Shown: positions 1,991-41,111 of the stretch, piece by piece
Numbering within the stretch: the first letter of the stretch is position 1
Layout: each line of letters begins with the position of its first letter
Virus record (IMG/VR): IMGVR_UViG_3300011432_000023
Span: 1 to 45,188 of that record
Strand: one strand, 5' to 3'
DNA: 45,188 nt
Source of the DNA: a virus
Notes under the pieces: generated by a model
Database searches by the model: none
Told to the model about the DNA's origin: nothing
What the model saw: the letters and a program-made list of their open reading frames with translations, nothing else
Made by a program: the position numbers and the translations under genes

Positions 1991-4900
1991 GCGGACATCT
2001 CCTGACCTTGCGGAGTGTCTGCGCCCTGGAGCGGGAACACCTTGACGGGCTGTGAGCCCTTTTGGTTCCCGGTAGGTGACACCCACATACGCACGTTGTA
2101 CATCTCAAAGCCCGGGTCATCCGCGCCAATCGCGTCTGTGCTCTGAATCAGGAACCGGGCGCGCTTGCCGAAGGAACCACGAGGAAGCGGGACGCGATAC
2201 ACAGTATTAACACCTGCGGTGACTGTCACCGGCTGCGCCGTGCCGGCCACGCCGTCGAAATAGGGCGTCACCGTCAGGTTGTTCGCCGCGAGACAGCTCA
2301 GCTCCAGCTCATAGATGTGGACGAGATCCCCGCCGCGACTCGCCTGTACGTAGCCGGTGTCGAGCGCTACCGCGTGCTGCGGGCGGCTGCGGAAGCTGAT
2401 ATTGAAGTGCCGGAGCGCGAGGGCGTAGGATGAGCCGATGAGCCGCACCTGCGCGAGACGAAATGAGCCGAAGCTCGTGATGTCGTTGCGGAACACCTGG
2501 AGTCCTGTCGTGTTCGCCGTGAACTCGACATCCGTCGTCCCATCTTCCTTAAACACCTGCACCGTGCAGTCTTCGGAGCCCGTGTCGATGCCAAGCTGTA
2601 TGTCATAGGCATCCTTGAAAATAGCGGGAGCCGAGGCGTCAGCGAAGCGCGTCCACAGCTCGTACTCGATGTTTTCCCCGTTGTCCTGCGTGCCCTGGTC
2701 GAGCAGGTACACTTCGCCACCTGTGGTGCCGGCGAGTACGCCGCCAGTCGGCTCACGGTGCAGCGCGGAGATTGTGTACGGATACAAGTAGCGGTGCCAG
2801 CGCTTCGTCACGAACGAGTAGCGGTACAGCTTGTCGCTCGTCGTGGTGTCCACGCCTTCGGGAGCGAGGAAGTAGAGGCTTCGGTTGTCCACGACGAATT
2901 GGAAGTCACCCGTTGCCGTGTTTAGTGGCGCGACACCGTGCCGCGTCTTCCCGCGGAAGAGAGGCTCGATGTCATCGAAGGGGAAAAAGGTGACGGTGTC
3001 GCCGTTCATCGCCATGAGCCCGTCTGCGGAACGGTAAATCACATCGTTACCCTCAACCCACACTCCGCGATCCACGGGAGGGTGCGGGTTGTGCATCGGG
3101 CGCGCGGCGAAGTTCACGGTCCCATCCGGATTCTCGTCTCCGTCCCCGGTGACACGGAACACGTCGCGCTTCGTCCCCACGTAGAGGCCGGAAGGCGTCT
3201 GCGCGAGCCAGAGCGGATCGGGTCCGATGTCACGCGTCTGGTATACGCTGAACGTGCCGTGCGCGTTGCGCTTGCTGAAGTAGAGGTAGCCCTCACTCGT
3301 CAGTACGGCCATGCGGTACTCGAATGGCCCGGCGATGTCGATGATACCGACAGGCACTTCGACGAGCCCGCGGATGAGCGTGATGTTCTGCTCCAGCGCG
3401 TCCACTTCGGACGAGAGGATGTCCGCCACCATATCCCCGCCAGGCGTGGTCGGGTAGCCGAAGTCGTGCGAGATGAAGCGGGACCGCTCCGCTGCCGTGT
3501 CCAGGTCGCTCCCGCTCCCGCCGCCTGATGTGTACTCGTCCAGGCGCATCGAGGAGTTGTTAGGGTCGACGCCGAGCACGGCGACGCGGTACCAGTCGTC
3601 GAGCTGGCCCCCATTCAAGTACACCCAAAACTGATTCGTGAGCGAAGCTCGGTTCTGAATCGCCGTCTCCGAGATCGTGACCTGCAAGCCCTGCTGGTAC
3701 GCTTCGACGGGGTCACTCGCCTCAGAAGGCGGCGACTGCACTTCGATTCGGCCATCCGTGGCCGCGAAGACTTCCTGGACGCGCACCCGGTACGTGCCCG
3801 TGTAGGCTCGGAAACCGGCGGCGAACCAGTTGATGCTGTCGAAACGAAACTCCTGAGAACTGCCCGAAGTCATGTGGACAACGACGCGGACAGCACGGAC
3901 GGTGCTCCAGTTGCGGCCCTCCGTCGAGCCGTTGCGCTTGAACTGGTTGCGCATCACGGCGAGATGCGTCCAGGCGGGCGACGCGGAGACGGCGAGCCTA
4001 GGCAGGCTCACGAGGGGCAGCCGGTCAGGCCGGCCCAGGCGGTGCGCGTTACGCACAGCGCGATCAGCCTCACCCTTCTGGAGAAGTGGGACCACTTCGG
4101 CCGGCGAGGGCACGTCGTCGTGGCCCTGATCGACAAGCCGGGCTTCAACCGCGGGGCTCGACGCGGGCTGACTCCCGCTGTAGTTCGCCACGTCGAAATC
4201 GAAATAGTAGTAATCCGACTGGAACGCGTCGGCGGCGGTGCCGAGGCCGAACATGATCTGAATCATCTTCACGCGCTCGGGCGCAGCGCTGTACACCTTG
4301 AAGTCAACCAAATCCTCAGCGCTCTCCTCGTTCCCGCCGAGCGTCGAATAGTTCTGATCCGACGCGAAGGTGCGCGTGGCCGAACCGCGATCTGTGGCGA
4401 GGATCTTCACGGCCTGGAGCGAGCAGGTGCCGCCCGTGCCCGCAACGGTGATGTTCGCCACGTCGTCCATCGTGAAGGTCGTTGAGCCGGTGACGGTGAC
4501 GGTGTGCGCCCCGTCAAGAGCGGGTGTACTGCCCGTGTGTCCGTCGATCCAGACGACATCGCCCGTTTGGAAGCCGTGCGCGGTAGCCGTGGTTACGGCC
4601 TCGGTCGAAGTCGAGGAGGACGTGATGACGATGCCATCGCCGCCCATGACGAAGGAGAGAGTGCCCTCCGTCGCCGCGAACGGGGTGCTCTCCGCCGCAG
4701 TGCAGCGCGAGATGACTTCTGTCGAAGCCGCGATGGTGCTCAGCTCGGGCCGAGTATTCGGCTTCGGGATGAACCAGTCGTATACCGTGGTGCCGTCCGT
4801 CGCCTTCCGCGTGTTACTGCGGGCAGCGAAAGCCCAGCGCGCGCTCTTACCCAGCGCGATGCGGCCGGTGCCGTTGAAAGTGCTGATGCTGACGCCGTCC

Positions 4901-5151
4901 TGATAGAGCTGATTCTCAGCCGCAACGAAGCGCTTCGTGCCGCCGGTCAGGACGGCAGTCAGGATGTTGTTCACTTCGTCTGTGTCGCCGAGTGCGGACT
5001 GTATGAGTTCCGACCCGGCGCGCAGCGTGACACTGCCCATCTCGTCCAGCGTCAGATTGTCCGCGCGGAGGAGGGCACCGGCCGGAGCCCCGATGGCGTC
5101 AGCCCTCGGAATCCAGCTCGAAGCACCCTCCTCGGCGAAGAGGTTAGGCAT
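1987..5151 (-). CDS. Large tail nozzle / tail hub-like virion protein
   Basis: 1054 residues. The start resembles podoviral nozzle (T7 gp12 or P22 gp10-like) proteins: a short leader, then a 'DNL...GSVTLRAG' type segment near residues 30-45. From about residue 580 to 830 the chain is a run of short beta blades with repeated Gly-Leu-Tyr, Tyr-Phe and Gly-Glu-Val-Tyr turns, as expected of a beta-propeller. The C-terminal 200 residues look like a beta-sandwich. It sits immediately downstream of the FN3-containing protein and the adaptor genes and upstream of the internal proteins, the usual place for the nozzle. Family placement rests on architecture and synteny. Confidence 0.7.
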   Translation of the reverse strand: MPNLFAEEGASSWIPRADAIGAPAGALLRADNLTLDEMGSVTLRAGSELIQSALGDTDEVNNILTAVLTGGTKRFVAAENQLYQDGVSISTFNGTGRIALGKSARWAFAARSNTRKATDGTTVYDWFIPKPNTRPELSTIAASTEVISRCTAAESTPFAATEGTLSFVMGGDGIVITSSSTSTEAVTTATAHGFQTGDVVWIDGHTGSTPALDGAHTVTVTGSTTFTMDDVANITVAGTGGTCSLQAVKILATDRGSATRTFASDQNYSTLGGNEESAEDLVDFKVYSAAPERVKMIQIMFGLGTAADAFQSDYYYFDFDVANYSGSQPASSPAVEARLVDQGHDDVPSPAEVVPLLQKGEADRAVRNAHRLGRPDRLPLVSLPRLAVSASPAWTHLAVMRNQFKRNGSTEGRNWSTVRAVRVVVHMTSGSSQEFRFDSINWFAAGFRAYTGTYRVRVQEVFAATDGRIEVQSPPSEASDPVEAYQQGLQVTISETAIQNRASLTNQFWVYLNGGQLDDWYRVAVLGVDPNNSSMRLDEYTSGGGSGSDLDTAAERSRFISHDFGYPTTPGGDMVADILSSEVDALEQNITLIRGLVEVPVGIIDIAGPFEYRMAVLTSEGYLYFSKRNAHGTFSVYQTRDIGPDPLWLAQTPSGLYVGTKRDVFRVTGDGDENPDGTVNFAARPMHNPHPPVDRGVWVEGNDVIYRSADGLMAMNGDTVTFFPFDDIEPLFRGKTRHGVAPLNTATGDFQFVVDNRSLYFLAPEGVDTTTSDKLYRYSFVTKRWHRYLYPYTISALHREPTGGVLAGTTGGEVYLLDQGTQDNGENIEYELWTRFADASAPAIFKDAYDIQLGIDTGSEDCTVQVFKEDGTTDVEFTANTTGLQVFRNDITSFGSFRLAQVRLIGSSYALALRHFNISFRSRPQHAVALDTGYVQASRGGDLVHIYELELSCLAANNLTVTPYFDGVAGTAQPVTVTAGVNTVYRVPLPRGSFGKRARFLIQSTDAIGADDPGFEMYNVRMWVSPTGNQKGSQPVKVFPLQGADTPQGQEMSA

Positions 5152-7037
5152 TAGGAGAACTCACCCTGTTCCTGTGTGGTGCCGTTGTCGCTCACGGAGC
5201 GAGCGGCGAGCGTCGTCGAAGCATCGTCGCGGTACACCGTCTGTGTGGTAGCCGTCTGTATGTTGCGGTTGAAGCGACGCCGTTTAAACCACTGCATCAG
5301 CTTGCGGAAGGTGGAGCCGTCGCCAGCCTGCTCCAGCACCGTGGTAGGCTCGGGGCCTTCGAGCTGGTCCCACACGCCCTGTGCCCCGGCGACCACCGTG
5401 TAGGTCGCGCCGGTCGGAGTCGTCGCCCAAGCGGTGACGGTCGCGACCTTCGCCGCGCTGTAGTCCTGGATAACCCGGGCTTGTCCTGCTCCCGTGCCGC
5501 TCGTGACGATGAGCGTGCAGTTGTTGTAGTAGTCGGCGGTCGCGGCGGCGTTCGTGCCCAGCGTCGCCGACGTGCCGGAAGCCGCGGCGAACGTGCCCTC
5601 ATCAAGCACCTGGGGATAGCTGCTCCGCAGCCCGCGCCCGGTGCCGTGGGGGGTCAGTGTCACCGCGTCGTCGTTGGCGGCGTAGGCAGCGGCGTTGATG
5701 ATCTGCTTGCCCAGCTGCTGCGAAGTCCGCACACGAATGAGCACGTCCCGGGCCGCGTTGCCTGAGTCCGTGATCCACACGTAGGTGTTCTCGGCCGTCA
5801 GCTCGGCAGCAGTGAGCGTGATCGTGTAGAAAGCCGTGGAGCCGATCCGGGTCGGGGCGTTCGTAGCGTTAGCCGCGGCTCCCCCGTCCTTCGTGACCTG
5901 ACATTCCGCAGCGCTCCAAGGAGCCGCCGCGCTCAGGAACTTGTCCGAGCTGGAAGCGGCCGGCGAAGCAGCCAAGAATACAAAAGCCTTCTGCACGCCG
6001 TAGACGGCGTCGAAGTCGAAGATCAGCAAGTGGTCCTCCAGAGCGGCTTCGGCCGCGGGGTCTGAAGCGGTCGTGAATGAGAGCGTGGAGCCGGAATTAC
6101 CGTCAGTTAGCCCCGGGTATGGGAAGTCCACGAAGGCGCGGAAGTAGTAGAGTGTGCTAGACGTGAGAAAGCCCGCCCCCAGGCTCGCGCTGACGGCCTG
6201 ATCTCCGTCTCCTGAGAACTCCTGGAGAGAAGTGACGTTGTCCCAGTTGCCCTGTACAGAGCCTGCGTCGTTGTCACCGTAGCCGAAGCGCACGATACAG
6301 GTGATGCCGTTCGGATCGATAGTCGCATTCAGCGTCGCCGACGTTGAGCCCACGCTCGACGCCGCCGCGGTGGTGACTTGGGGCTCGTCGGCCGCCGTCG
6401 TGAACTCGACTATGCTGCCCGTCAGCGTCGTCTCATTCACCGTGGTGCGCGTGACGACGAATCGATACTCATAGGTCGTTTCGGGGTCGAGCCCGGTCAG
6501 GGTCGCAGTCGCCGTCGTTTCCGCGTAGCCACTAGTAGCGTAGCCAGAGGCAGTGTCGTCGGTCCAGATCGTTTCCCCGTCTTCCCGATGCTGGAACTTC
6601 GCCGTGACGGTGGAGTCCGCCGTATTGGGGAAGAAATCGCAGGTGAGGATCGCGCCATCGGCCGTGATCGTGCCTGCTGCCGGAGTGTCAGCAGTCGCGG
6701 TAACGGCGCGGGTCTTGACGCCTAGCGTGGAGCCATAGACGGTGTTTCCCGTGCCGTACTGATGATGAACAGCGCGGAAGACGTGGTCCTCGTCGGACGC
6801 CCGGGTGAGCGCGGCGCTGATCGGGAACGGTCCGCCGCCTTCCGGGATCAGCTCGCCGTACTGTGTCGTGTTCTCGCCGACAGCGGCATACCCATAGTCA
6901 AACCAGCCGTACTTTGTCACGCCGAACTTGTGCGGGTTCGTCGCCGAGCACTGGCCGTTGAGCGTCAGCCCGGACGTGTGTGCCCCTTGATCGACGGTGC
7001 CGTGCGCGTAGCCGAGCGTATCGCAGGAGAGAGCCAT
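5151..7037 (-). CDS. FN3/Ig-like domain virion protein (tail-associated)
   Basis: 628 residues, ATG with a GGAGGG Shine-Dalgarno; its start overlaps the region of the previous stop. Residues about 115-215 and 220-325 each read as a fibronectin type III or Ig-like domain, with 'LTGLDPETTYEYRF' and 'YYFRAF' motifs typical of FN3 strand F. The second half holds Ala/Thr-rich beta segments, including a 'TSGTGAGQARVI' motif common in phage structural proteins, and a basic Arg-rich patch near residue 585. It is probably exposed on the virion and may bind carbohydrate or cell surface. It lies between the adaptors and the nozzle. Confidence 0.65.
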   Translation of the reverse strand: MALSCDTLGYAHGTVDQGAHTSGLTLNGQCSATNPHKFGVTKYGWFDYGYAAVGENTTQYGELIPEGGGPFPISAALTRASDEDHVFRAVHHQYGTGNTVYGSTLGVKTRAVTATADTPAAGTITADGAILTCDFFPNTADSTVTAKFQHREDGETIWTDDTASGYATSGYAETTATATLTGLDPETTYEYRFVVTRTTVNETTLTGSIVEFTTAADEPQVTTAAASSVGSTSATLNATIDPNGITCIVRFGYGDNDAGSVQGNWDNVTSLQEFSGDGDQAVSASLGAGFLTSSTLYYFRAFVDFPYPGLTDGNSGSTLSFTTASDPAAEAALEDHLLIFDFDAVYGVQKAFVFLAASPAASSSDKFLSAAAPWSAAECQVTKDGGAAANATNAPTRIGSTAFYTITLTAAELTAENTYVWITDSGNAARDVLIRVRTSQQLGKQIINAAAYAANDDAVTLTPHGTGRGLRSSYPQVLDEGTFAAASGTSATLGTNAAATADYYNNCTLIVTSGTGAGQARVIQDYSAAKVATVTAWATTPTGATYTVVAGAQGVWDQLEGPEPTTVLEQAGDGSTFRKLMQWFKRRRFNRNIQTATTQTVYRDDASTTLAARSVSDNGTTQEQGEFS

Positions 7038-7760
7038 TTAGCGGACCCTCCGCCCATACTGCCAGGGGAGTTGCACCGTGGGCCGCTTGCCGGCGAGGCC
7101 CGCGGAGCCGCCCATCACGATGTCTTTCCGCGTGAGCCGGCTCATGCGCGTCTTCGCCCGCGACATCATCGAGCTGTACCGCCCGGAGTAGTGCGTAGCC
7201 AGGGCCTTATCCTGCCCAGCGCCCTCCGACGCGTATGCACGAGCCACAACCTTCAGCTCCACGGCGTCATCCGCCCACAGCGGGAAGTTGTCATCGTAGT
7301 CCGTGGAGTCCTCCAGCTTCGTGGGCAGGATGAAGCGCTCCAGCGTGAAGTGGTCGGCAGTCTCGGAAGGCAGGTTCACCTTGTAGAGCGTATTGCCCTC
7401 GATCCCGTAGGCGAACACATTGCCCTCGACCTCGTTCCAGATTCGGTTGTCTCGGATGATCCGCTCCATGCTCAGGTGCGGGATCATCCGATTCTTCCAC
7501 TCGCAGCGCGTGACGGCCGCGGTATCCTCGGGGAGCGGATACGCCGACTGCCCCTCGTAGTCCTTGATGTACGTGTACGCCTCGTTGGCAAGAGTCGAGT
7601 CCGTGCGCTCGAAGAGGATCTGTGTCTCAGCAGCAAATTCGTCGCGGGCCTGATTGAGCCAGCTCGTGAGCCGAGCATCGGACCAGCCAAGGCGTGAGTC
7701 GGAATTCGGGTCTACTAGTTTCGTGCGAATCCGGGTCAAGTGAGAGGAGAGCGTCCTCAA
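7038..7760 (-). CDS. Head-tail adaptor-like protein 2
   Basis: 240 residues. The start is TTG at 7760, overlapping the TGA of the upstream gene (TTGA). The N-terminus has the pattern of phage adaptor proteins: helical 'WSDARLTSWLNQARDEFAAET' segment, then a 'YPLPEDTAAV' beta turn and a bundle of helices ending in a basic tail. The same overall plan is seen in the neighbouring 7757-8401 product, so the two may be diverged paralogues serving successive rings below the portal, as gp11-type adaptors do. A virion role is well supported by position; the exact ring is not. Confidence 0.65.
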   Translation of the reverse strand: MRTLSSHLTRIRTKLVDPNSDSRLGWSDARLTSWLNQARDEFAAETQILFERTDSTLANEAYTYIKDYEGQSAYPLPEDTAAVTRCEWKNRMIPHLSMERIIRDNRIWNEVEGNVFAYGIEGNTLYKVNLPSETADHFTLERFILPTKLEDSTDYDDNFPLWADDAVELKVVARAYASEGAGQDKALATHYSGRYSSMMSRAKTRMSRLTRKDIVMGGSAGLAGKRPTVQLPWQYGRRVR

Positions 7761-24762: not shown

Positions 24763-24980
24763 CTCACTGCCCTTCAGGACGCGGATTGAGGCGGACACGC
24801 TGCGCCGATTGCCGGCGCGCTGCGGCCCGTGTCCGCATGCGTAGGCTTCGTGCGCGCGGTGGATCGGCTAAGTGCGCAACGCTCGTGCGGTGGGGTCCGA
24901 GAGCGGAAGCGGAGTCGGCTCACCGCCCTTGCCACATGTGCGGCCGACCCCCTGTCTTCGATCAAGTGTGCTGTGCATGA
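24759..24980 (+). CDS. Small basic zinc-ribbon protein
   Basis: 73 residues, ATG overlapping the upstream TGA (ATGA), and its own TGA overlaps the helicase start. 'CADC' near residues 15-18 and 'CHMCG' near 58-62 with a later Cys pair form a ribbon. The stretch between is Arg/Ala-rich and helical, suitable for DNA or RNA binding. Confidence 0.55.
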   Translation: MTHCPSGRGLRRTRCADCRRAAARVRMRRLRARGGSAKCATLVRWGPRAEAESAHRPCHMCGRPPVFDQVCCA

Positions 24981-26521
24981 CACCACGTTCGCTTGGCCTA
25001 GCGTTCGACGACTGGCGACCGAAGCAACTCGACGCCGTGTTTGAGATTGCCTCGCACATGCCCGGGCTCGTCGCGCACTCGGGGCCGACAGGATCCGGGA
25101 AGAGCCTCACTGCGCTCGGCGCGGCAACCCTGCGCGGTGGCCGCTTCGCCTACCTTACTGCGACGAAGGGCTTGCAGGATCAGATACGAGCGGACTTCCC
25201 TCACGTCGTGGACATGCGCGGGCAAGCAAACTACCTGTGCGACCTTGAGAAGCCCGCAAAGGTCACGAGTGATCAGGCGGTATGTCGCTTCGGTGTGCAG
25301 TGCGCGCTTAAAGGCTCTGGCTGTGCGTACTTCGCCGCGTACCGCAACGCATCAGCTAACAGCATGACGACGAACTACGCGTGCTGGCTAAATGCATACG
25401 AGCATGGCCTAGGATTCGGAGCGTTCGACACGCTCATCCTTGATGAAGCACATGCGGTGCCTGAAGAGCTGTCGCGCTTCTACACTGCGGAAATTCCCGA
25501 CTGGGCGTTCGCCGCATACTTGACCCGCGAAGCTGGCGTACAGCTACGAGCCGGCGAGCTGGGTCGGAGCCTTCGCCCCGCGCTTGAAGAGACGAGCCGG
25601 GTGCTCAAGCAAAAGCAAGTCGATACGCTTGCAGAAATGACGAAGCGTGGCCGGCAGCGCAGCATACTGCGCCGCTTGAAGGAGATAGACTCTCTCCTCA
25701 ACACCGTGGCCCGCATGGCCGTCATATGCGTCGATCCTCAGAATTGGGTGCTGCAACCCGGGACTGCATACGAGCCTCTCCGCATTGTGCCCGTGCGGCC
25801 CTCGGCGCAGGCTCTCCTGCGGAACATTCCGGGTGTGCTGCTCTCCTCCGCGACACTCACACAGAAGACGCTCGACCTAATCGGCCTGGGGGCCGTGCAC
25901 TGGACAAGCGCTGTGCCCGCATACGATCGAAAGCAGCGGCCAATCTACCTGATCCCTACTGCGAAGATGCGCTACGGGATGCCCGAGTCAGAGCGCGCGG
26001 TGCTCTTCACGCGACTCGATCAGGCTATACAAGCGCGGAAGGCTCTCAAAGGTGTCATTCACACAGGCAGCTACACGCTTGCGAAAGAGATCGCCGAGCG
26101 CAGCAAGCACCGAGCGTACTTCATCACACATGAGCGGGCAAACGCCGCAGCTCGCATACGACAGTTCAAAGACATGAAGGGGCCAGCCATACTCGTAAGT
26201 CCCGCAGTCACAACAGGTTGGAACTTTCCCGGCAAGGAGTGCGAATGGCAGATCATCGCGAAAGTGTCCTGGCCGAACCCGAACGATCCGGTGATTGCCG
26301 CGCGCACGAAGCTCGACGCGAACTATCCGGGCCACCTCGCGATGCAATCCCTCGTGCAAGCATGCGGACGCGGCAACCGCTTGCCCACGGATTACTGCGA
26401 GACGCTCGTGTTCGATGACACCGCCGAGCGACTGCTGCGACGATTCCGCGGATACGCGCCGGACTGGTTCCACGAAGCAGTTGAACGTCGCGCGGCTCTG
26501 CCCGCGCCGAGGAGGAGGTAA
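24977..26521 (+). CDS. DinG/XPD-like superfamily 2 helicase with Fe-S cysteines
   Basis: 514 residues from ATG at 24977 (ATGA overlap). Walker A 'GPTGSGKS' is at 36-43 and 'DEAH' at 156-159. 'LLSSATL' (motif III-like) lies near residue 290, and 'QACGRGNR' (motif VI) near the C-terminus. Four Cys (88, 103, 109, 116) between motifs I and II are placed as in the 4Fe-4S domain of XPD/DinG helicases, which unwind DNA 5' to 3'. A role in phage replication or recombination is expected. Confidence 0.85.
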   Translation: MTPRSLGLAFDDWRPKQLDAVFEIASHMPGLVAHSGPTGSGKSLTALGAATLRGGRFAYLTATKGLQDQIRADFPHVVDMRGQANYLCDLEKPAKVTSDQAVCRFGVQCALKGSGCAYFAAYRNASANSMTTNYACWLNAYEHGLGFGAFDTLILDEAHAVPEELSRFYTAEIPDWAFAAYLTREAGVQLRAGELGRSLRPALEETSRVLKQKQVDTLAEMTKRGRQRSILRRLKEIDSLLNTVARMAVICVDPQNWVLQPGTAYEPLRIVPVRPSAQALLRNIPGVLLSSATLTQKTLDLIGLGAVHWTSAVPAYDRKQRPIYLIPTAKMRYGMPESERAVLFTRLDQAIQARKALKGVIHTGSYTLAKEIAERSKHRAYFITHERANAAARIRQFKDMKGPAILVSPAVTTGWNFPGKECEWQIIAKVSWPNPNDPVIAARTKLDANYPGHLAMQSLVQACGRGNRLPTDYCETLVFDDTAERLLRRFRGYAPDWFHEAVERRAALPAPRRR

Positions 26522-27131: not shown

Positions 27132-27634
27132 AGACCATCGCTGCTGCACTCTGTTTCTCGCTGATTGCGGCTCAGGCAATCGGCTCGAAGCGCGATCCGT
27201 ACGAAGTGACGGTGTACCCGCGCATGGGCCTGCCGCCGCTCGGCGATCAGGTGCAGAACTACCACATCACGCTTCGCCTGAACGAGCCACTTACGGAAGC
27301 GAACTACTGCATCGGCGTCGAAGTGACGTGGCCGGACGGCACGCGCTCATCGCATGTGCAGGACTGCCCGCCCTTCGCCGAGTACATCGCGCAGGTGAGA
27401 CGCTACACGGAATGCCGCGAGCAGGTCATCGTCTGCCCGAAGGACTACACCGTATGCGAGTTCGACTGTCCCGCGCCCTTCGATCTACAGCGCGAGTGGA
27501 CGTTCGATACGAGGCGTATGAGGCACGCCTACGGCCCGGGACGTCACACGGTCTTCGTGAAGTTTCTACTGCCGGGCGGCAGAACGATGCTGCGCTCAGC
27601 GGACTGGCATGTTGCAGGTGAGGAGGAACGATGA
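27125..27634 (+). CDS. Secreted/periplasmic protein of unknown function
   Basis: 169 residues from ATG at 27125 (overlaps the lipoprotein stop; GTG at 27128 is also possible). The leader 'MVKTIAAALCFSLIAAQA' is a classical signal peptide. The mature part is predicted beta-rich with an Ig-like pattern and seven Cys between about residues 57 and 122, which could form disulphides. Tight coupling to the HEXXH lipoprotein suggests that both work outside the cytoplasm. Confidence 0.6.
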   Translation: MVKTIAAALCFSLIAAQAIGSKRDPYEVTVYPRMGLPPLGDQVQNYHITLRLNEPLTEANYCIGVEVTWPDGTRSSHVQDCPPFAEYIAQVRRYTECREQVIVCPKDYTVCEFDCPAPFDLQREWTFDTRRMRHAYGPGRHTVFVKFLLPGGRTMLRSADWHVAGEEER

Positions 27635-28203
27635 TCGACTTTCAAGAGATTGAAGCTAGCTACTCTCCGGCGGGATCGCTCGGCCAACGCTGCATCGAGA
27701 TCTTCGGCCACGCGGTGAACGGCGTAAGACGGCTGAATGTCGGCTGTGGCGGACAGAAGTTCCCCGGCTGGATCAACGCCGACAAGGAGCTGCCATGGCT
27801 CATCGCGGAGGGCCGGGAGCAAGAACCGGATGTGCTGTGGGACATGGACTACTACCACGAGATACCACTTCCCCTTGAGTCCTTTGACGTGATACTCGCC
27901 TCGCATGTGCTGGAGCACGTCGCCGATCCTGTCGCCGTCGTCTTCCGGCTGCACACGTTACTGAAGCCGGGCGGGCGCCTTCTCGTGCTCGTGCCGAACG
28001 CTTGGTCCGACGTGGGCCTCTGTAACCCCTTCCACCGCAACTACTTCTCCATGCACTCGTTCGTCTACTACCGCAAGAGCACGTATGACCAGCCGGGAAC
28101 GCCAGGCTATCACGCGAACGAGGGGCGCCCGATCGCGGACTGGGCGAGCGTCCAGGTGGCGATGGTGGACGAGTACGAGATCGCCGCGGTGTTAACGAAA
28201 TGA
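27631..28203 (+). CDS. Class I SAM-dependent methyltransferase 1
   Basis: 190 residues, ATG with GAGGAGG upstream, overlapping the previous TGA. SAM motif I 'LNVGCGG' is at about residues 32-38, an Asp-rich strand 'DVLWDMD' at about 68-74, 'FDVILASHVLEHV' at about 86-98, and 'LLKPGGRLLV' at about 110-119. This is the Methyltransf_11 layout. Substrate unknown. It is followed by a second methyltransferase and a radical SAM gene in one overlapping unit. Confidence 0.85.
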   Translation: MIDFQEIEASYSPAGSLGQRCIEIFGHAVNGVRRLNVGCGGQKFPGWINADKELPWLIAEGREQEPDVLWDMDYYHEIPLPLESFDVILASHVLEHVADPVAVVFRLHTLLKPGGRLLVLVPNAWSDVGLCNPFHRNYFSMHSFVYYRKSTYDQPGTPGYHANEGRPIADWASVQVAMVDEYEIAAVLTK

Positions 28204-28733
28204 GCGAACTCCTGATCGGTGCCGGCTCTTGTCGTGAGAAACTGATCGGCGTTCGCGACGGGCTCGTCTACATCTACCCGAGCGAGAACATGCCGCCGTG
28301 GCTACGCCTCACCACACTCGACAACAACGCCGACCACGCTCCGGATGTGCTCGCCGATCTGCGCGAGGCGCTCCCCTTCTCCGATGAGTGCTTCGACGAA
28401 ATCCACGCCTACGAAGTGCTGGAGCATGTCGGGCAGCAGGGCGACTACATCGAGTTCTTCCGACTCTTCGGCGAGCTATGGCGCATACTCAAGCCGGGCG
28501 GACTCCTCCTCGCGAAGTGCCCGAGCTGGCGGGGCATGTGGGCCTGGGGCGACCCCTCGCATACGCGGGTGATCTCGTCGGGCACACTGACCTTCCTCGA
28601 CCAGCGTGAGTACGAGAAGCAGGTGGGCAAGACTCCGATGAGCGACTTTCGTGGTATCTGGAAACGCTCATTCGAGACGATGTTCACGCAGGAAGATGGA
28701 GACACGCACTACTTCATTCTGAGGAAAGCATGA
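28200..28733 (+). CDS. Class I SAM-dependent methyltransferase 2 (divergent)
   Basis: 177 residues, ATG overlapping the previous TGA. A motif I variant 'LIGAGSCREK' lies at the N-terminus, then 'FDEIHAYEVLEHV' near residue 64 and 'ILKPGGLLLAKCPSW' near 97. The build parallels the upstream gene but is shorter at the N-terminus and diverged, so the two may act on different substrates or as a heteromer. Confidence 0.8.
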   Translation: MSELLIGAGSCREKLIGVRDGLVYIYPSENMPPWLRLTTLDNNADHAPDVLADLREALPFSDECFDEIHAYEVLEHVGQQGDYIEFFRLFGELWRILKPGGLLLAKCPSWRGMWAWGDPSHTRVISSGTLTFLDQREYEKQVGKTPMSDFRGIWKRSFETMFTQEDGDTHYFILRKA

Positions 28734-29572
28734 TTCAGCTTCAGCTCGAAACCATCGGCGGCATATGCAACGCCGCGTGCCACTTCTGCCTCCTGCAAGA
28801 TCGCAAGTACTACGCGAACCAGGGCGTGCCCACGGGCACGATGAGCATGGACCTGTACCGCAAGATCATCGACGAGGCGGTGGGCATACCTGAGATTTCA
28901 CGGCTGACGCTCACGGGGTTGAGTGAGACGCTCCTCGACAATCAGCTTGAGGAGCGGATCGCATACGCGCGCCAAAAGCAGGCATCGTCTGCAGCGTACG
29001 CCTCCATCTGGCCCATCGACATCTACACGAACGGGCTTGCGCTCCGTCCTGATCGCTTCGACTCGCTCAAGGCAGCGGGGCTGACCGGTCTCAGCGTGTC
29101 ACTCAACGCCGTGCGACCCGAGCAGCACACCGCCATCATGGGAATTAGGGCTTACGAACACATATGCCGAAATATCGACTACGCCATCATCACGGGTGGC
29201 GTACACGTCGAAGTGAAGGCCGTGGTGAACGGGGACGCCTTCACGACGAAGGACGCGGAGCAGTTCAACTCTCGCTGGCATCCGTATGCTGTGTGTGTCC
29301 ATGAGGGCAATTGGGCCGGGGACAACCGCACCTTGCGGGCCTTCGACCCGAAGGAGCCCTGCCACCGTGCCATCGGCCAGCTTTACGTGACCTGGGAGGG
29401 CCGGGTGGGCATGTGCTGCTTCGACCCGCTCGCCAAAGCGAACTTTGGAGACCTCCGCACGCAGAGCATCAAAGAGGTGTACAATGCGCAGAGGTACGCG
29501 GACTTCCGCCAGGACCACGCGGAGGGCCGGGCTGACGCGCACGCCGTATGCGCCAAATGCACGCGTATCTGA
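28730..29572 (+). CDS. Radical SAM protein with SPASM-like C-terminus
   Basis: 280 residues, ATG overlapping the previous TGA. Cys13, Cys17 and Cys20 form the CxxxCxxC motif that binds the radical SAM 4Fe-4S cluster. The (beta/alpha) barrel follows, with 'LTLTGLSE' as the SAM-contact Gly motif. The last 75 residues contain 'PCHRAIGQLYVTWEGRVGMCC' and a final C-x2-C, the Cys pattern of a SPASM domain with auxiliary clusters. Such enzymes modify peptides or small molecules. Confidence 0.85.
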   Translation: MIQLQLETIGGICNAACHFCLLQDRKYYANQGVPTGTMSMDLYRKIIDEAVGIPEISRLTLTGLSETLLDNQLEERIAYARQKQASSAAYASIWPIDIYTNGLALRPDRFDSLKAAGLTGLSVSLNAVRPEQHTAIMGIRAYEHICRNIDYAIITGGVHVEVKAVVNGDAFTTKDAEQFNSRWHPYAVCVHEGNWAGDNRTLRAFDPKEPCHRAIGQLYVTWEGRVGMCCFDPLAKANFGDLRTQSIKEVYNAQRYADFRQDHAEGRADAHAVCAKCTRI

Positions 29573-30109: not shown

Positions 30110-30841
30110 ATGTCGCTCTTCAATCCTAAGAACGCGCGCGTCGGCGGCAAGCTCGTGGACAACGTCGATGCCGATGTGACGTTCGAGACGGTGCTGTACG
30201 ACTATAACGGGACCGTCGCGGTTCCCGTCCCCGCGATTCACCTGCACGGCGTCGTCACTGCCTCGCAGGATGAGTCGCTCCACGCCATCGGCTCGGAGTT
30301 CGACGAGTACTACTCCGCGGGCAAGGCCGAGGAGTTCGCGCCCACCGGGAAGTACTTCACGATCCGCAAGGAAGGCGCCCGCCTGTCCGATCAGAGCAAG
30401 GCCATGGCCTTGTTCGTCGCGCTGCAGAACTCGGGAATCCCCGAGGAGACGTTTGACGCTGAGGACGTGACCCTGTTCAACGGCAACTACAGCTTGACCC
30501 GCAAGCGGGAGACGCGGGAGTTCAAGAACAGGGCCGGGCAGAAGGAGACGAAGGAGTCGTCCATCCTGCTTCCTACCGCCGTCAACGAAGGCGTCAAGAA
30601 GGTGAAGAACAACGCGAAGGCGTACAACGGTGCGGCCAAGGACCGTGCCACTTCGATCGTGTCCGCGATCATCGCCGAGAAGGGCGTTGTCCCTTCCAGC
30701 CAGTTGGGCGCGATGGTCTTCAATAAGGTGTCGAAGGACAAGGACGCCCAGGCCATCGTCAAGGCGGCTATCGATCAGTCGTTCCTGGCCGCGGGCCCCT
30801 GGCAGTTCGAGAACGGAGTGCTTTCGTCGACGAACACGTAA
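30110..30841 (+). CDS. Conserved-looking early protein, possible ssDNA-binding or replication accessory
   Basis: 243 residues, ATG with GGAGG upstream. The first 90 residues look like a beta-barrel-rich domain, then a Lys/Arg/Glu-rich middle (about 125-145) and a helical C-terminus. It is the first gene after two promoters and likely highly expressed. The plan (beta domain then charged helices) would suit a DNA-binding protein, and no other SSB candidate is seen in this replication block. That function is a guess. Confidence 0.7.
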   Translation: MSLFNPKNARVGGKLVDNVDADVTFETVLYDYNGTVAVPVPAIHLHGVVTASQDESLHAIGSEFDEYYSAGKAEEFAPTGKYFTIRKEGARLSDQSKAMALFVALQNSGIPEETFDAEDVTLFNGNYSLTRKRETREFKNRAGQKETKESSILLPTAVNEGVKKVKNNAKAYNGAAKDRATSIVSAIIAEKGVVPSSQLGAMVFNKVSKDKDAQAIVKAAIDQSFLAAGPWQFENGVLSSTNT

Positions 30842-30843
30842 CA

Positions 30844-30900
30844 GGCCGAAACGGCGGGTGTAACCGCCGTCCGCGTGTTAGGCACGTGCTGAAGAGGGCC
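30844..30900 (+). ncRNA. Type II hammerhead ribozyme 1
   Basis: Order: GGCC (30844-30847), GAAA (30848-30851), stem III CGGCGG/CCGCCG (30852-30857 with 30864-30869), cleavage triplet GUC ending at C30871, stem I CGCGTG/CACGTG (30872-30877 with 30883-30888), core CTGAAGA (30889-30895), and GGGCC (30896-30900) closing stem II with one bulged G. All invariant hammerhead residues are present (CUGANGA, GAAA with A-U closing stem III, and an H at the cleavage site). The open end is stem II. It starts 2 bases after the upstream stop and ends 2 bases before the ATG at 30903. Confidence 0.9.
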
Positions 30901-30902
30901 AA

Positions 30903-31178
30903 ATGTTGAAGTCGATGAAAACGCTGTGGTTGAAAGCTCTCCGTAGCGGAAAGTACAAACAGGGAACGGGGACCTTGGAAACCACAGACGGTAAATACTG
31001 CTGTCTCGGAGTCCTCACGAAGATCGACGGGGGAGAGTGTGAGCACCACCACTACCTTGACCCGGATAGAGCAAAACGATTGCGTCTGCCGGGGCAAGTA
31101 CAGCAAGACCTTGCTCAGATGAATGACAGGCGAGTCTCGTTCAGGGCGATCGCCAACTACATCAAGAAGAACCTGTGA
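30903..31178 (+). CDS. Small phage protein of the 'W-LRSGKYKQG...CCLGVL' type
   Basis: 91 residues. The combination 'LRSGKYKQGTGTLET' and 'GKYCCLGVL' followed by a helical C-terminus ('FRAIANYIKKNL') is one I recognise from small phage proteins of unknown function. A Cys-Cys pair and a His cluster ('CEHHHY') could bind metal. The ATG is 2 bases beyond a hammerhead ribozyme whose core supplies the ribosome site. Confidence 0.75.
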   Translation: MLKSMKTLWLKALRSGKYKQGTGTLETTDGKYCCLGVLTKIDGGECEHHHYLDPDRAKRLRLPGQVQQDLAQMNDRRVSFRAIANYIKKNL

Positions 31179-31630
31179 AGACGCTTAAGCCCGTAGAGAA
31201 ACGAATCGAGTGGTTTGGTGTGCGTATAGAAGCCCTACGTGAACGTGCTGAAGCCGCCGAGGCCGAAGTGGGGCGGCTCCGAGCCAAGAACGTTGATCTG
31301 GGGGGTGGGCAAGGCTTCAGCGATCTGCTTGCCGACTACAACGACAGGCTCAACGACATCAAGGCTCTCCGGGCCAAGCTCGCGGCGGCACCGGAGGACC
31401 TGACGCGAAACGACGCCTACGAGCTTCAGGGCATCCTCCGAACGCTCACACCCTCCGGCACGGCCCTGAAGACTTCGGCGCGAGAGCTTGTGCGTAAGTG
31501 GGAGGAGCAGAATGCAAAGCTCGCGCTCGCGGACAAGGTCGTAGCGGCTGTGTGGAACAGCAAGGCGTGCGTGCGGCTGAAGTCTATCCGCGCCGCACTC
31601 GATGCCTACCGAAAGGGCGATGCAAAATGA
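31175..31630 (+). CDS. Coiled-coil protein
   Basis: 151 residues from GTG at 31175 (GTGA overlap). Heptad-like Arg/Glu/Ala/Leu helices span residues about 10-40 and 55-130, separated by a Gly-rich turn. There is no enzymatic motif. It shares its general composition with the next gene, and both lie in the segment bracketed by the ribozymes. Confidence 0.65.
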   Translation: MKTLKPVEKRIEWFGVRIEALRERAEAAEAEVGRLRAKNVDLGGGQGFSDLLADYNDRLNDIKALRAKLAAAPEDLTRNDAYELQGILRTLTPSGTALKTSARELVRKWEEQNAKLALADKVVAAVWNSKACVRLKSIRAALDAYRKGDAK

Positions 31631-32118
31631 GCAGCAGCAAACCGACACCGCAGGACATCGAGCGGGCGTGGAAGTACCTCAGCGGGCGCATCTGCGGCAC
31701 ACACGTTCATGGGAGCATTGAAGGGCTCGCCACCGAGTTCGCCGCTGTCAGGGAGGAGACGCAGCGGGAGCGGGATGTCTGGTGGGGCAAGACTCTCTGC
31801 CCCGATGTCTCTCCCGTGCAGCTTGATCCCGAAGTACACCGGGAGGCCGCCATCGCTACCGCCGAGTGCAACGAAGCCCGCGTCCGCCAGCTTGAGACCG
31901 ACCTGGAGAATGCGCGAGAAGACCTCGCCATCATGCAAGCCGACCTTGAGCGAACCCAAAACGCCGAGGCCGAGGTGGAGCGGCTGCGCGCTGTCGTGGA
32001 TGATCGGGATCTCAGAATCGTCTCGGCGAGGGGCCGGATCTGCGAAGCCGAAGCCGACCTCGCGGCCCTGAAGGAGCGGAACGAACGGTTGGTGGAAGTG
32101 GCGGCAGAAGACGCGTAG
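31627..32118 (+). CDS. Coiled-coil protein, last gene before the second ribozyme
   Basis: 163 residues from ATG at 31627 (ATGA overlap). Residues about 75-160 form a long continuous coiled coil rich in Glu, Arg, Leu and Ala. The N-terminus holds a small domain with a Cys and a Trp pair. The final G of its TAG stop codon is the first base of the second hammerhead ribozyme, so gene and ribozyme overlap by one base. Confidence 0.65.
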   Translation: MSSSKPTPQDIERAWKYLSGRICGTHVHGSIEGLATEFAAVREETQRERDVWWGKTLCPDVSPVQLDPEVHREAAIATAECNEARVRQLETDLENAREDLAIMQADLERTQNAEAEVERLRAVVDDRDLRIVSARGRICEAEADLAALKERNERLVEVAAEDA

Positions 32119-32177
32119 GCCGAAACGGCGGGGGTTTACCCCTGCTGTCCGCGAGTCAGGCTCGCGCTGAGGAGGCC
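32118..32177 (+). ncRNA. Type II hammerhead ribozyme 2
   Basis: GGCC (32118-32121), GAAA (32122-32125), 9-bp stem III (32126-32134 with 32139-32147, TTTA loop), GUC ending at C32149, stem I CGCGAG/CTCGCG (32150-32155 with 32161-32166, loop TCAGG), core CTGAGGA (32167-32173), GGCC (32174-32177). Stem II is a perfect 4-bp GGCC/GGCC helix. Compared with copy 1, stem I changes T-A to A-T and G-T to G-C, and the loop keeps TYAGG. The ATG of the next gene is at 32180. Confidence 0.93.
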
Positions 32178-32179
32178 AG

Positions 32180-32308
32180 ATGGCGAAGGCGGAGAAGGGT
32201 AACGCGGGCAAGTGTTACGACCACGCATATCGCGGCCCCCGTTTCGACAAGCCGATCGTGCTACGGGACGCCTCAGGCAAGCCGCTCTACACGGCGGACA
32301 AGAAGTGA
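32180..32308 (+). CDS. 42-residue basic protein downstream of ribozyme 2
   Basis: ATG to TGA, Lys/Gly/Arg/Tyr-rich with one Cys ('GKCYDHAYRGPRFDKP'). Its Shine-Dalgarno AGGAGG (32170-32175) is part of the ribozyme core and stem II. The TGA overlaps the next GTG. Confidence 0.6.
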   Translation: MAKAEKGNAGKCYDHAYRGPRFDKPIVLRDASGKPLYTADKK

Positions 32309-37681: not shown

Positions 37682-37836
37682 TGGACTGTCAGGTGTGCGG
37701 ATTCCCTACTGATTATTCCTTCGTCTGCGGCCTTCACGACGTAACGTTGGAGTGCATATGGGAGTACATCTGCTTCGACTGCTGGCTGTGGGCTGACAAC
37801 CTTGACACATGGGGGCGAAGTGCACACGAGGATTGA
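37681..37836 (+). CDS. Small multi-Cys zinc-finger-like protein
   Basis: 51 residues from GTG at 37681, overlapping the upstream TAG by one base. 'CQVCG', Cys16, Cys25, and 'CFDC' give six Cys plus a His, enough for one or two zinc ions. It overlaps the DNA polymerase start by up to 35 bases, so it is probably coupled to it. Confidence 0.6.
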   Translation: MDCQVCGFPTDYSFVCGLHDVTLECIWEYICFDCWLWADNLDTWGRSAHED

Positions 37837-40348
37837 GGGTGAGGGGCCGCGACCGTGCTCCGTGATGTGGGTGGGCGAGGCCCCTACGCCTGCGGAGAAG
37901 ATGAGCGGGCGCGTGTGGCAAGGCAAGGCGGGGACGCTGCTCTCGCGCGTGATGGATGCTGCGGACTTGTTCCGTCCCGACCAGTACATCACGAATCTGC
38001 GGAAGACGTTCGTGCAGGAGGGTGAGGACATTTTCACGGAACTCGACGAGTTCGGGCTCGAAGTCGCGTGCGTCAAGCCGAGCGTCATCGTCGCCATGGG
38101 CCGCAACGTCTCGCGTTACTTCCTCGGCGACGTGGACATGGAGGCCGTACACGGCAACCCGTACAAGCAGACGATTGCTATCGGCCAATCGGGTACGCTT
38201 TGGACAGGCACCGTGATCCCCATTTACAGTCCGGCGGCGGGGTTGTACGACGCTTCGCTCCTCGGCGCAGTGCTCAGCGATGTCCGTCGGGTGGCTGCGG
38301 TGATAGCAGGGGATGAGGCCCCGAGACTGCTGCGGCAAGATGTGGTGAAGGAGTACCGTTGGGGTTTCGACTCCCGCTGCCTCTGCTACCAAAAGGAATC
38401 CGTGATCGGGCTCGACACTGAGGGCTGGCAGGATGCGCCTTGGTGCCTTTCCTACTCCTGGGCCAAGGGGCAGGCTGCGGTGATCCGTGCGAATGATGAC
38501 TCTCAGCTATACCTGTTTCGTAAGTGGCTGCCCGGCGTCAAGCAGGTTTGGCTTCACAACTCGCTGCACGACCTGGGTGTGCTCAAGGCCATGGGTATCA
38601 CGCTACGTGACGACCAGATTCAAGACACGATGCAGCTCGCATACTGCATCCAGTCTGAGCCACAGGGGCTCAAGGCCCTCGCGCTAAGGCATCTCGGCCG
38701 GCATATGCAGAACTACCACGATCTGACTTTCCCCTTCGACCAGCTCGGTGCGGCCACCTACCTGCGGAAGATAGCTGCGGGGAACTGGCCAAAGCCGGAG
38801 CCCTATTTTGATGAGGAAGAACAGAAGGTGAAGAAGCCGCGCAAGCTGCAGTCGCGCGCCGCAGAGCTGCTGAAAAAGTATGACGCGGGTGGGCTGGAGA
38901 AGTCGTTGCGGGACACTTGGGCTGACATCCCCGCACATGTGCGGGCAGTCGTTGAGGAGGCTGCCAAGGAGCAGGGTGATCTTGGCTCCATGCCGCCCTT
39001 CTCGCTCAGCGATTGCCCGAAGGATAAGGTGCTCGACTACGCCGCCGAGGACGCGGACGTGACCTTACAGCTCGCAGGGCCGCTCGCCGCGATGGCTGTG
39101 GGTCGGAAGGTGTCCGACGTGTACGAGATCGACCGTCAGTGTATACCGATCCTTCAGCGTATGCAGGAAGTAGGCATGCGGGCGGACCCTGCACACTTCC
39201 GCAGGCTGACGGAGACGTTCACGAACAAGATGGCCGGGAAGCGGTTGGAGATCGCTTCGTATAACAAGGGCGAGGACGTGAATCCGTCCTCCAGTGACCA
39301 AGTCGCCACTCTGCTGTACGACCGGCTCCGGCTTCCTGTGCTGAAGCTGACGCCGGGCCGCAAGCCCTCGACTGAAGACAAAGTGCTCGAAGCCTTGCGC
39401 GAGAAACATCCGGTGCCCGGGCTCATCTGCGACTACCGGGAGTATGCCAACCTTCGCAACAACTTCTCTTCTAAGCTGGCCGGCATGGTACGTCCTGATG
39501 GCCGGGTGAGCGGGCGTATCCGGGGGACGCGAGTGCCTTCGGGCCGCATTGCGATGAGTGAGCCGAACCTGCTCGGTATCCCGACGCGCACCGCGGAAGG
39601 CGTACTGATCCGCAACGGCTTTCCCGCACCGCCGGGCCGCGTGTTGGCTTCGTGCGACCTTGACCAAATCGAAATGCGTGTGATGGCAAGTCTCAGCGGC
39701 GACGCGCTGCTCAAGGGCCATTTCCGTGATGGTCGCGACGTGCATGTGCAGACGGGCGCCCGCATCTTCGGCGTGTCGCTCGAAGAGGCGAAGCAGAAGA
39801 AGTACCGCGACCCGGCGAAGACGACTGGCTACGGCATCCTTTTCGGCATCTCTGGACAGGGGCTGGATGAGCAATTCCGCAAGCTAGGCATTACGGGCGT
39901 GCGCGGTCAAGACATGATCGACGGATGGTTGGGGATGTACAAGGGCGTCCACAGGTTCATCAAGGAGACGCACCGTCAAGCCGCGATGAGTGGATACATC
40001 CGGGACGAGAGCGGGCGGATCCGCGACTTGCCCGGCGCCCTTATCGGCGACCTGCACCAACTCTCCGAGGCTCGGCGCTTCGCTGTCTCTCAACGTATCC
40101 AGGGGACCGCGGCGCACATCTTGAAGCGCGCACAGCTCCGTGTGTGGGAGTGGATTCAGGGGTGTCCGTTCGCAGATTTGCTGCTACAGATCCATGATGA
40201 ACTCCTCTTCGAGTGCGAAGAGGGGCAGGAGGAGTTGCTCAAGACGTTGGTGCTCGAAGCAATGACCGCGGACTCGGGCGTACTCCTCTCCGTGCCCATC
40301 ACCGCCAAGATGGGCTTCGGTAAGACCTGGGGCGCTCTCAAGGACTGA
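37802..40348 (+). CDS. Family A DNA polymerase with N-terminal UDG-like domain
   Basis: 848 residues from TTG at 37802; GTG at 37820 may be the true start. Residues about 24-165 look like a family 4/5 uracil-DNA glycosylase fold: 'VGEAPTPAEKMSGRVWQGKAGTLL' spans motif 1, 'ITNLRKTF' follows, and 'YSPAAGL' (142-148) stands where the HPA motif lies; the Fe-S Cys are missing. A DEDD 3'-5' exonuclease follows (Asp205, Glu207 and later 'HNSLHD', 'YAAEDADV'). The polymerase has motif A 'CDLDQIEMR' (about 617-625), motif B with Lys near 673 and Tyr at the O-helix position (as in T7, E. coli has Phe), and motif C 'HDE' near 798. Confidence 0.9.
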   Translation: MTHGGEVHTRIEGEGPRPCSVMWVGEAPTPAEKMSGRVWQGKAGTLLSRVMDAADLFRPDQYITNLRKTFVQEGEDIFTELDEFGLEVACVKPSVIVAMGRNVSRYFLGDVDMEAVHGNPYKQTIAIGQSGTLWTGTVIPIYSPAAGLYDASLLGAVLSDVRRVAAVIAGDEAPRLLRQDVVKEYRWGFDSRCLCYQKESVIGLDTEGWQDAPWCLSYSWAKGQAAVIRANDDSQLYLFRKWLPGVKQVWLHNSLHDLGVLKAMGITLRDDQIQDTMQLAYCIQSEPQGLKALALRHLGRHMQNYHDLTFPFDQLGAATYLRKIAAGNWPKPEPYFDEEEQKVKKPRKLQSRAAELLKKYDAGGLEKSLRDTWADIPAHVRAVVEEAAKEQGDLGSMPPFSLSDCPKDKVLDYAAEDADVTLQLAGPLAAMAVGRKVSDVYEIDRQCIPILQRMQEVGMRADPAHFRRLTETFTNKMAGKRLEIASYNKGEDVNPSSSDQVATLLYDRLRLPVLKLTPGRKPSTEDKVLEALREKHPVPGLICDYREYANLRNNFSSKLAGMVRPDGRVSGRIRGTRVPSGRIAMSEPNLLGIPTRTAEGVLIRNGFPAPPGRVLASCDLDQIEMRVMASLSGDALLKGHFRDGRDVHVQTGARIFGVSLEEAKQKKYRDPAKTTGYGILFGISGQGLDEQFRKLGITGVRGQDMIDGWLGMYKGVHRFIKETHRQAAMSGYIRDESGRIRDLPGALIGDLHQLSEARRFAVSQRIQGTAAHILKRAQLRVWEWIQGCPFADLLLQIHDELLFECEEGQEELLKTLVLEAMTADSGVLLSVPITAKMGFGKTWGALKD

Positions 40349-40349
40349 A

Positions 40350-41111
40350 ATGCCCAAGCCTAAGATTCTCTTCCTCGACATCGAGACAGCCCCCGATCTC
40401 GGTTACGTGTGGACCCTCTACCAGACGAACGTGATCGAGGTGAAGGAGCCCTGGTACATCCTCTCCTATGCCGCGAAGTGGAAGGGCGAGAAGGCGTTCG
40501 TGCGCGGCCTGAACGACTGGGCGGACTACGGGCTCGACATGAGTAACGACCACCACCTAATGAGGGAGTTGTGGCTCCTGCTCGACAAAGCGGACATTGT
40601 CGTCGCGCACAACGGGATGGACTTCGATTTGAAGAAGATCAACGCGCGATTCATCGTACACGGCATGAAGCCGCCCTCGCCCTACGTCATCGTGGACACG
40701 AAGCGTGAGGCGAAGAAGGTGGCGCGGTTCTCCTCGAATCGCCTCGACTCCCTGTGCGATCAGCTCGACATCGGGCGCAAGCTGCGGCATCAGGGGTTCT
40801 CGATGTGGCTCGGCTGCATGGCTGGTGACGCGGCTTGCTGGAAGACGATGAAGCGGTACAACCTGCACGACATCAAGCTGCTCGAAGGTCTGTACAACGA
40901 GCTGGCACCATGGATGCGCCAGCCGAACGGCGCGATGTGGGGGAGGAACTGCACGAACCCTGCGTGCAGCTCGAAGCGGAAGATGCACTCGGACGGCATA
41001 CGCCGGAACAAGTCGCGGGCATACCGCCGTCTCGTGTGTATGGACTGCGGAGCGCGAGCGCAGGGGACGTTTTCCTTGCCGAGCCCGCGGGCGGATCGTG
41101 TTCCCGCGTAA
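40350..41111 (+). CDS. DEDD 3'-5' exonuclease with C-terminal zinc ribbon
   Basis: 253 residues, ATG one base after the polymerase stop. Asp10 and Glu12 ('FLDIETAP') are exonuclease motif I, 'HNGMDFDLKK' is motif II, and 'YNLHDIKLLE' is motif III. The C-terminal 55 residues hold a basic Cys ribbon ('CTNPAC', 'CMDCG'). Because the polymerase has its own intact exonuclease domain, this is a second, free-standing DnaQ/RNase H-like nuclease. Confidence 0.8.
   Translation: MPKPKILFLDIETAPDLGYVWTLYQTNVIEVKEPWYILSYAAKWKGEKAFVRGLNDWADYGLDMSNDHHLMRELWLLLDKADIVVAHNGMDFDLKKINARFIVHGMKPPSPYVIVDTKREAKKVARFSSNRLDSLCDQLDIGRKLRHQGFSMWLGCMAGDAACWKTMKRYNLHDIKLLEGLYNELAPWMRQPNGAMWGRNCTNPACSSKRKMHSDGIRRNKSRAYRRLVCMDCGARAQGTFSLPSPRADRVPA

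Follow-up and report, generated by a model that had tools for sequence, protein, structure and literature searches.

What two short RNA elements do between the genes of an uncultivated virus of microbes, and whether they are genuine ribozymes at all, was the question raised by this locus. The window, by which we mean the whole stretch of DNA that was analysed, is an IMG/VR virus record of 45,188 bases, and in it the original prediction had placed two type II hammerhead ribozymes. Their parts were located by direct reading of both copies, and the cleavage sites were placed from the motif, as follows.

30843-30901, + strand: hammerhead copy 1 (type II), whole motif, from sequence, structural scan and the relatives' covariance model
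30848-30851, + strand: GAAA of copy 1
30870 and 30871, + strand: U30870 and C30871 of copy 1
30871-30872, + strand: predicted cleavage site of copy 1, 3' of C30871 (GUC)
30872-30888, + strand: stem I hairpin of copy 1
30896-30900, + strand: stem II 5' strand of copy 1, GGGCC
32117-32178, + strand: hammerhead copy 2 (type II), whole motif, from sequence, structural scan and the relatives' covariance model
32122-32125, + strand: GAAA of copy 2
32148 and 32149, + strand: U32148 and C32149 of copy 2
32149-32150, + strand: predicted cleavage site of copy 2, 3' of C32149 (GUC)
32150-32166, + strand: stem I hairpin of copy 2
32174-32177, + strand: stem II 5' strand of copy 2, GGCC

With a slash at the predicted cut, copy 1 reads A30843-GGCC-GAAA-CGGCGG-GUGUAA-CCGCCG-UC(30871) / CGCGUG-UUAGG-CACGUG-CUGAAGA(30889-30895)-GGGCC, and copy 2 reads A32117-GGCC-GAAA-CGGCGGGGG-UUUA-CCCCUGCUG-UC(32149) / CGCGAG-UCAGG-CUCGCG-CUGAGGA(32167-32173)-GGCC. 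As had been claimed, the invariant residues CUGANGA and GAAA are intact in both copies, the A15.1-U16.1 pair closing stem III is present in each of them (A30851-U30870 and A32125-U32148), the NUH triplet is GUC in both, and the linear order is that of the type II permutation, with stems I and III as hairpins and stem II open. The differences described between the copies were also found on direct reading, in such a way that stem I changes a U-A pair to A-U and a G-U pair to G-C, stem III goes from 6 bp with a 6-nt loop in copy 1 to 9 bp with a 4-nt loop in copy 2, and loop I is UYAGG in both. Stem II had been overlooked; it consists of two pairs and a bulge caused by an extra G in copy 1, and of four pairs in copy 2, and the bulged G may slow copy 1. 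A structural scan of both strands detected only these two motifs in the window, and none was found in 400 strands simulated with a second-order Markov model of it. When the window was compared with a contig 99.7% identical to it (L122), the changes fell in loop III, in stem I (G-U to G-C) and in one mismatch of stem III, and the core was unchanged.

The assignment to the type II class was then examined with Rfam, as the prediction itself had proposed. Copy 1 scored below the cutoff (26.5 bits with an E value of 0.012 over 2 kb, against a gathering cutoff of 37 for RF02276 Hammerhead_II, which is a search convention and not a property of the ribozyme), and copy 2 gave no match; at gathering scores nothing was found in the whole window, nor in an Rfam family search of its own record. 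Because this support was sub-threshold, relatives were searched among 2.9 million viral contigs, with a pattern in which the core and a GGCC stem II were fixed and the loops and stems I and III were left free. At least 120 stretches were obtained in this way, and stems I and III both form in 114 of the 142 relatives chosen solely for the sequence of their core and stem II, against approximately none after shuffling of the gaps. A covariance model was built from 55 aligned viral relatives, with the window and its near-twin excluded and the rows filtered by structure. In this structure-filtered alignment 99.9% of the pair cells are paired, with 249 double changes, and the covariation score is 0.729, against 0.15 when shuffled and at most 0.16 when slid; stem II is little tested by covariation because it is mostly invariant. 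The model returned both copies of the window, copy 2 with 57.9 bits (E 9.6e-14) and copy 1 with 56.8 bits (E 1.9e-13), the next match in the window being at 12.7 bits. These scores, from a model independent of the window, settle the type II identity despite the sub-threshold Rfam result.

The same model detected 11 tandem copies on one strand of another contig (IMGVR_UViG_3300038412_000035, L008) within about 5 kb (about 2,575-7,559), and three of its members exceed the Rfam Hammerhead_II cutoff, which is passed by 3 of the 30 model hits in 11 loci. By sequence, the copies of the window are part of a subfamily of phage type II hammerheads whose members mostly score below the Rfam cutoff. The interpretation as type II hammerheads is therefore upheld by sequence, structure, permutation and comparative covariation, with self-cleavage as its predicted consequence. 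Other searches were less productive: copy 2, when compared with phages by BLAST, yielded weak matches only, the one inspected being a microvirus hairpin without CUGANGA. Among the 118 stretches found when bacterial genomes were scanned for cores with G at N7 (the N of CUGANGA), only 7 had the structure. Many of the bacterial matches (e.g. L268, L277 and L297) correspond to a single 58-nt alphaproteobacterial coding sequence that recurs and ends in CTGAGGAGGCATCTTTGAC; it is not a ribozyme and looks like the frameshift region of prfB (release factor 2).

The relatives also revealed features of the subfamily outside the core. Stem I typically has 5 variable pairs closed by GUNANGC in the relatives listed, the U of loop I is conserved in 146 of 146 of them, and an A stands immediately 5' of stem II in 169 of the 175 listed relatives with at least 4 stem II pairs. 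Contacts between loops are known in hammerheads, and by analogy the loop I U and the A beside stem II are candidates for a tertiary contact. We considered at this point whether the motif could be decayed or a decoy, its hairpins being kept as mRNA-end hairpins or as DNA elements without cleavage. The copies are under the Rfam cutoff, their activity is a prediction, and 4 of 18 consensus-matching RNAs did not cleave in the 2011 study (PMC3088659), as such a reading would have it; against it, none of the unpaired catalytic residues is altered in either copy or in the near-twin, and neither the conserved U nor the conserved A is needed for a hairpin function alone, so that we regard it as very unlikely. 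The published type II consensus includes a pseudoknot between loop I and the 3' tail in the majority, not all, of the motifs (PMC3088659). Such a pairing is hinted by the window copies (UUAGG/CCAAA and UCAGG/CCAGA), but no loop I-tail pair rose above shuffles in the 146 listed relatives, and one contig (L123) shares the tail of copy 2 but differs in the loop.

Both ribozymes are on the + strand, inside a long rightward run of genes that includes a helicase, a family-A DNA polymerase, an exonuclease and an integrase. The genes to which the text refers are the following.

24872-26521, rightward run: helicase
30110-30841, + strand: gene upstream of copy 1, 243 aa, with its UAA stop 1 base from copy 1
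30903-31178, + strand: first gene after copy 1, 91 aa, PHROG 18067, AUG at 30903
31175-31630, + strand: second gene of the bracketed block, 151 aa
31627-32118, + strand: third gene of the bracketed block, 163 aa, with its UAG stop (32116-32118) overlapping the first bases of copy 2
32180-32308, + strand: short predicted ORF of 42 codons, beginning 6 nt past the copy 2 core
37802-40348, + strand: family-A DNA polymerase (Pfam DNA_pol_A, residues 466-844)
40350-41111, rightward run: exonuclease

The label of "replication block" given to this region was roughly right, in that helicase, polymerase and exonuclease are in the same run, but the genes adjoining the ribozymes have no assigned function. 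Relatives of the 243-aa upstream protein were sought and found in the near-twin contig only, and the right half of the window had no match among cultured phages by megablast. The AUG at 30903 is supported as a start because the aligned homolog in Bradyrhizobium phage ppBjS10J-1 starts at the same Met. Two further observations concern the same run: close to its N-terminus the DNA polymerase has a second match, to the uracil-DNA glycosylase superfamily (Pfam UDG, residues 13-150), and a protein with Radical SAM and SPASM domains (28730-29572, + strand) is encoded immediately 3' of two predicted methyltransferase genes (27631-28203 and 28200-28733).

The position of the ribozymes with respect to these genes had escaped the first reading. 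Both copies occupy the entire intergenic space, in such a way that the 5' edge of copy 1 is 1 base from the UAA of the 243-aa gene and the UAG of the third bracketed gene runs into copy 2, and an AUG is found 7 nt after the core of copy 1 and 6 nt after that of copy 2. A similar placement was detected among the relatives listed, where a long upstream frame ends at most 45 nt from GAAA in 202 of 228 cases, with a median of 7 nt before GAAA. A UAG stop built with the first bases of the ribozyme itself, as at 32116-32118 in the window, is in frame in 46 of the 60 UAGGCC cases among the listed relatives.

We consider it likely that genuine type II hammerheads process the polycistronic message of this phage at gene boundaries, with the released core serving as a ribosome-binding site. 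Each element would fold during transcription and cut after GUC, leaving the upstream message with the stem III hairpin and a 2',3'-cyclic phosphate at its 3' end, and the downstream message with a 5'-OH; the latter would open with the stem I hairpin and then present the freed core CUGA(A/G)GAGG, which would be the ribosome-binding site for the AUG located 6-7 nt downstream. As the copies bracket exactly three genes, the two cuts together would excise a 1,278-nt three-gene mRNA (30872-32149) with a hairpin at each end. Cleavage, the chemistry of the ends, the binding of ribosomes to the core and the effect on expression are what we infer from motif and position. Prophage hammerheads flank single genes or short blocks and were suggested to cut transcripts into gene- or operon-length mRNAs, three tandem sets of them cleaving in vitro and one in E. 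coli (PMC3088659), and the three-gene block between our copies agrees with that suggestion.

An excised RNA could instead have its ends rejoined, giving a circular or spliced phage RNA, an outcome that we take as most improbable. The 5' end of the 30872-32149 RNA would carry stem I, CUGAAGA and GGGCC, and its 3' end GGCC, GAAA, stem III and UC; these halves could pair through stem II into a self-ligating hybrid hammerhead, or an RtcB-type ligase could join them. Two copies that resemble each other, point the same way and have compatible GGCC/GGCC stems would allow it, and many relatives have a tail that could capture the 5' portion of the downstream product, although the window copies do not. 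Perreault et al., on the other hand, sought spliced or circular hammerhead products and found none (PMC3088659), and the coding content of the fragment suits an ordinary mRNA.

The tail just mentioned, NUCAG, follows stem II immediately and is complementary to CUGAN of the core (L004, L006, L010, L017, L018 and about 45 others among L001-L120). In 50 of the 126 members listed in the main sample its N is complementary to N7, and both positions covary, with 34 cases of C7/GUCAG and 16 of U7/AUCAG and no crossing between them (p 2e-13), a non-complementary base being present in 2 further tails. After cleavage the freed CUGAN could base-pair with this tail, so that the core would be masked and rejoining made harder.

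Coming back to the processing of the message with the core released in front of the next gene, the ribosome-binding role proposed for it was analyzed through the identity of N7. Two sequences of the window are of relevance here.

30892-30898, + strand: AAGAGGG, ribosome-binding-like sequence in the core and stem II of copy 1, before AUG 30903
32170-32175, + strand: AGGAGG, perfect Shine-Dalgarno sequence in the catalytic core and stem II of copy 2, before AUG 32180

The perfect AGGAGG, which the first reading had overlooked, is contained in CUGAGGAGG, and arises when CUGANGA followed by GG has G at N7. In the window, then, an AGGAGG-like sequence stands at the usual spacing from two AUGs, that at 30903, supported by its homolog, and that at 32180, which opens the predicted 42-codon frame. 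N7 is A in copy 1 and G in copy 2, whereas it is C or U in 129 of the 137 members listed in the main sample and G in 4 of them. Among the relatives listed, a frame of at least 40 codons begins with an AUG at +5 to +9 in 8 of 25 members with G at N7 versus 4 of 163 with C or U (p about 1e-5). A stricter count of start-adjacent members gave 8 of 28 versus at most 8 of 159 (p 5e-4), the latter being an upper bound, as its numerator comes from exhaustive searches for AUG at +6/+7 and its denominator from the matches listed. The AUG-adjacent members with real frames are 8 with G, 8 with C or U and 1 with A. This link with G comprises 8 loci, some of them possibly related, and the p values carry no correction for kinship; the AUG-adjacent members with C or U speak against it, as does the weak GAGG that CUGAUGAGG also provides. 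The enrichment near starts supports, without proving, a selection of G at N7 in the ribosome-binding site.

The AGGAGG could also be incidental to real transcript-processing hammerheads, the proximity to the start coming from tight gene packing alone while N7 drifts. Phage genes are indeed densely packed, N7 is the sole free position of the core, and members with C or U adjoining an AUG exist; yet G, so rare at N7, is present in about half of the AUG-adjacent members with a real frame, and all 8 AUGs after G open frames of at least 38 codons, versus 8 of 18 after C or U (p 0.0095). We consider this explanation unlikely.

Predicted folding was also used to follow the accessibility of the ribosome site, and no consistent gain was detected on cleavage, with a mean unpaired value of 0.53 before and 0.56 after, while that of the AUG went from 0.49 to 0.63. 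That cleavage switches translation on is therefore unsupported by folding alone. Within the processing that we favour, a further step can be put forward tentatively, as a possibility that falls short of being probable: the catalytic core itself would be the ribosome-binding site, folding and ribosomes would compete for CUGAGGAGG, so that initiation and self-cleavage would control each other, and N7 would be selected as G for the ribosome site or as a tail-paired C or U for trapping the product across the members of one family. The ribosome-binding sequence in the core, standing before the next start, suggests a link between the cutting and the reading of the message. The placement from stop to start codon, the bracketing of three genes, the ribosome site within the core and the core-complementary tail of the relatives make mRNA processing and translation control directly addressable in simple reporter constructs. 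At its current cutoff, Rfam leaves most members of a large phage subfamily undetected.

In order to place these elements among known systems, we compared them with other self-cleaving RNAs found close to genes. The glmS ribozyme shares with them the trait of being a self-cleaving RNA in a bacterial 5' leader, but has an unrelated fold and requires a metabolite cofactor. The HHphage hammerhead of haloviruses HF1/HF2 is also close upstream of a phage gene start, 13 nt from the start codon of a helicase, with the 5' end of the transcript within three nucleotides of the cleavage site, but it belongs to an archaeal virus and is a structural and core variant of the hammerhead (PMC3088659). A ribosome site in the core coupled to a gene start, or a core-complementary tail, was not found described in the open-access papers searched, and the words Shine-Dalgarno, ribosome and translation are absent from the main text of PMC3088659. 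The closest system is the published type II hammerhead (RF02276; Perreault et al. 2011, PMC3088659), which shares the CUGANGA/GAAA core, the A-U pair of stem III, GUC, the open stem II and the hairpin stems I and III, as well as its location at phage or prophage gene boundaries with several copies around short gene blocks. The window copies differ from it in being sub-threshold in Rfam, in their GGCC stem II, their fixed GUNANGC loop I and the lack of support for the pseudoknot, and in having the start codon 6-7 nt past the core, with AGGAGG inside the core of copy 2. The type II hammerhead class is real and known since 2011, and the window contains a gene-start-coupled variant of it.
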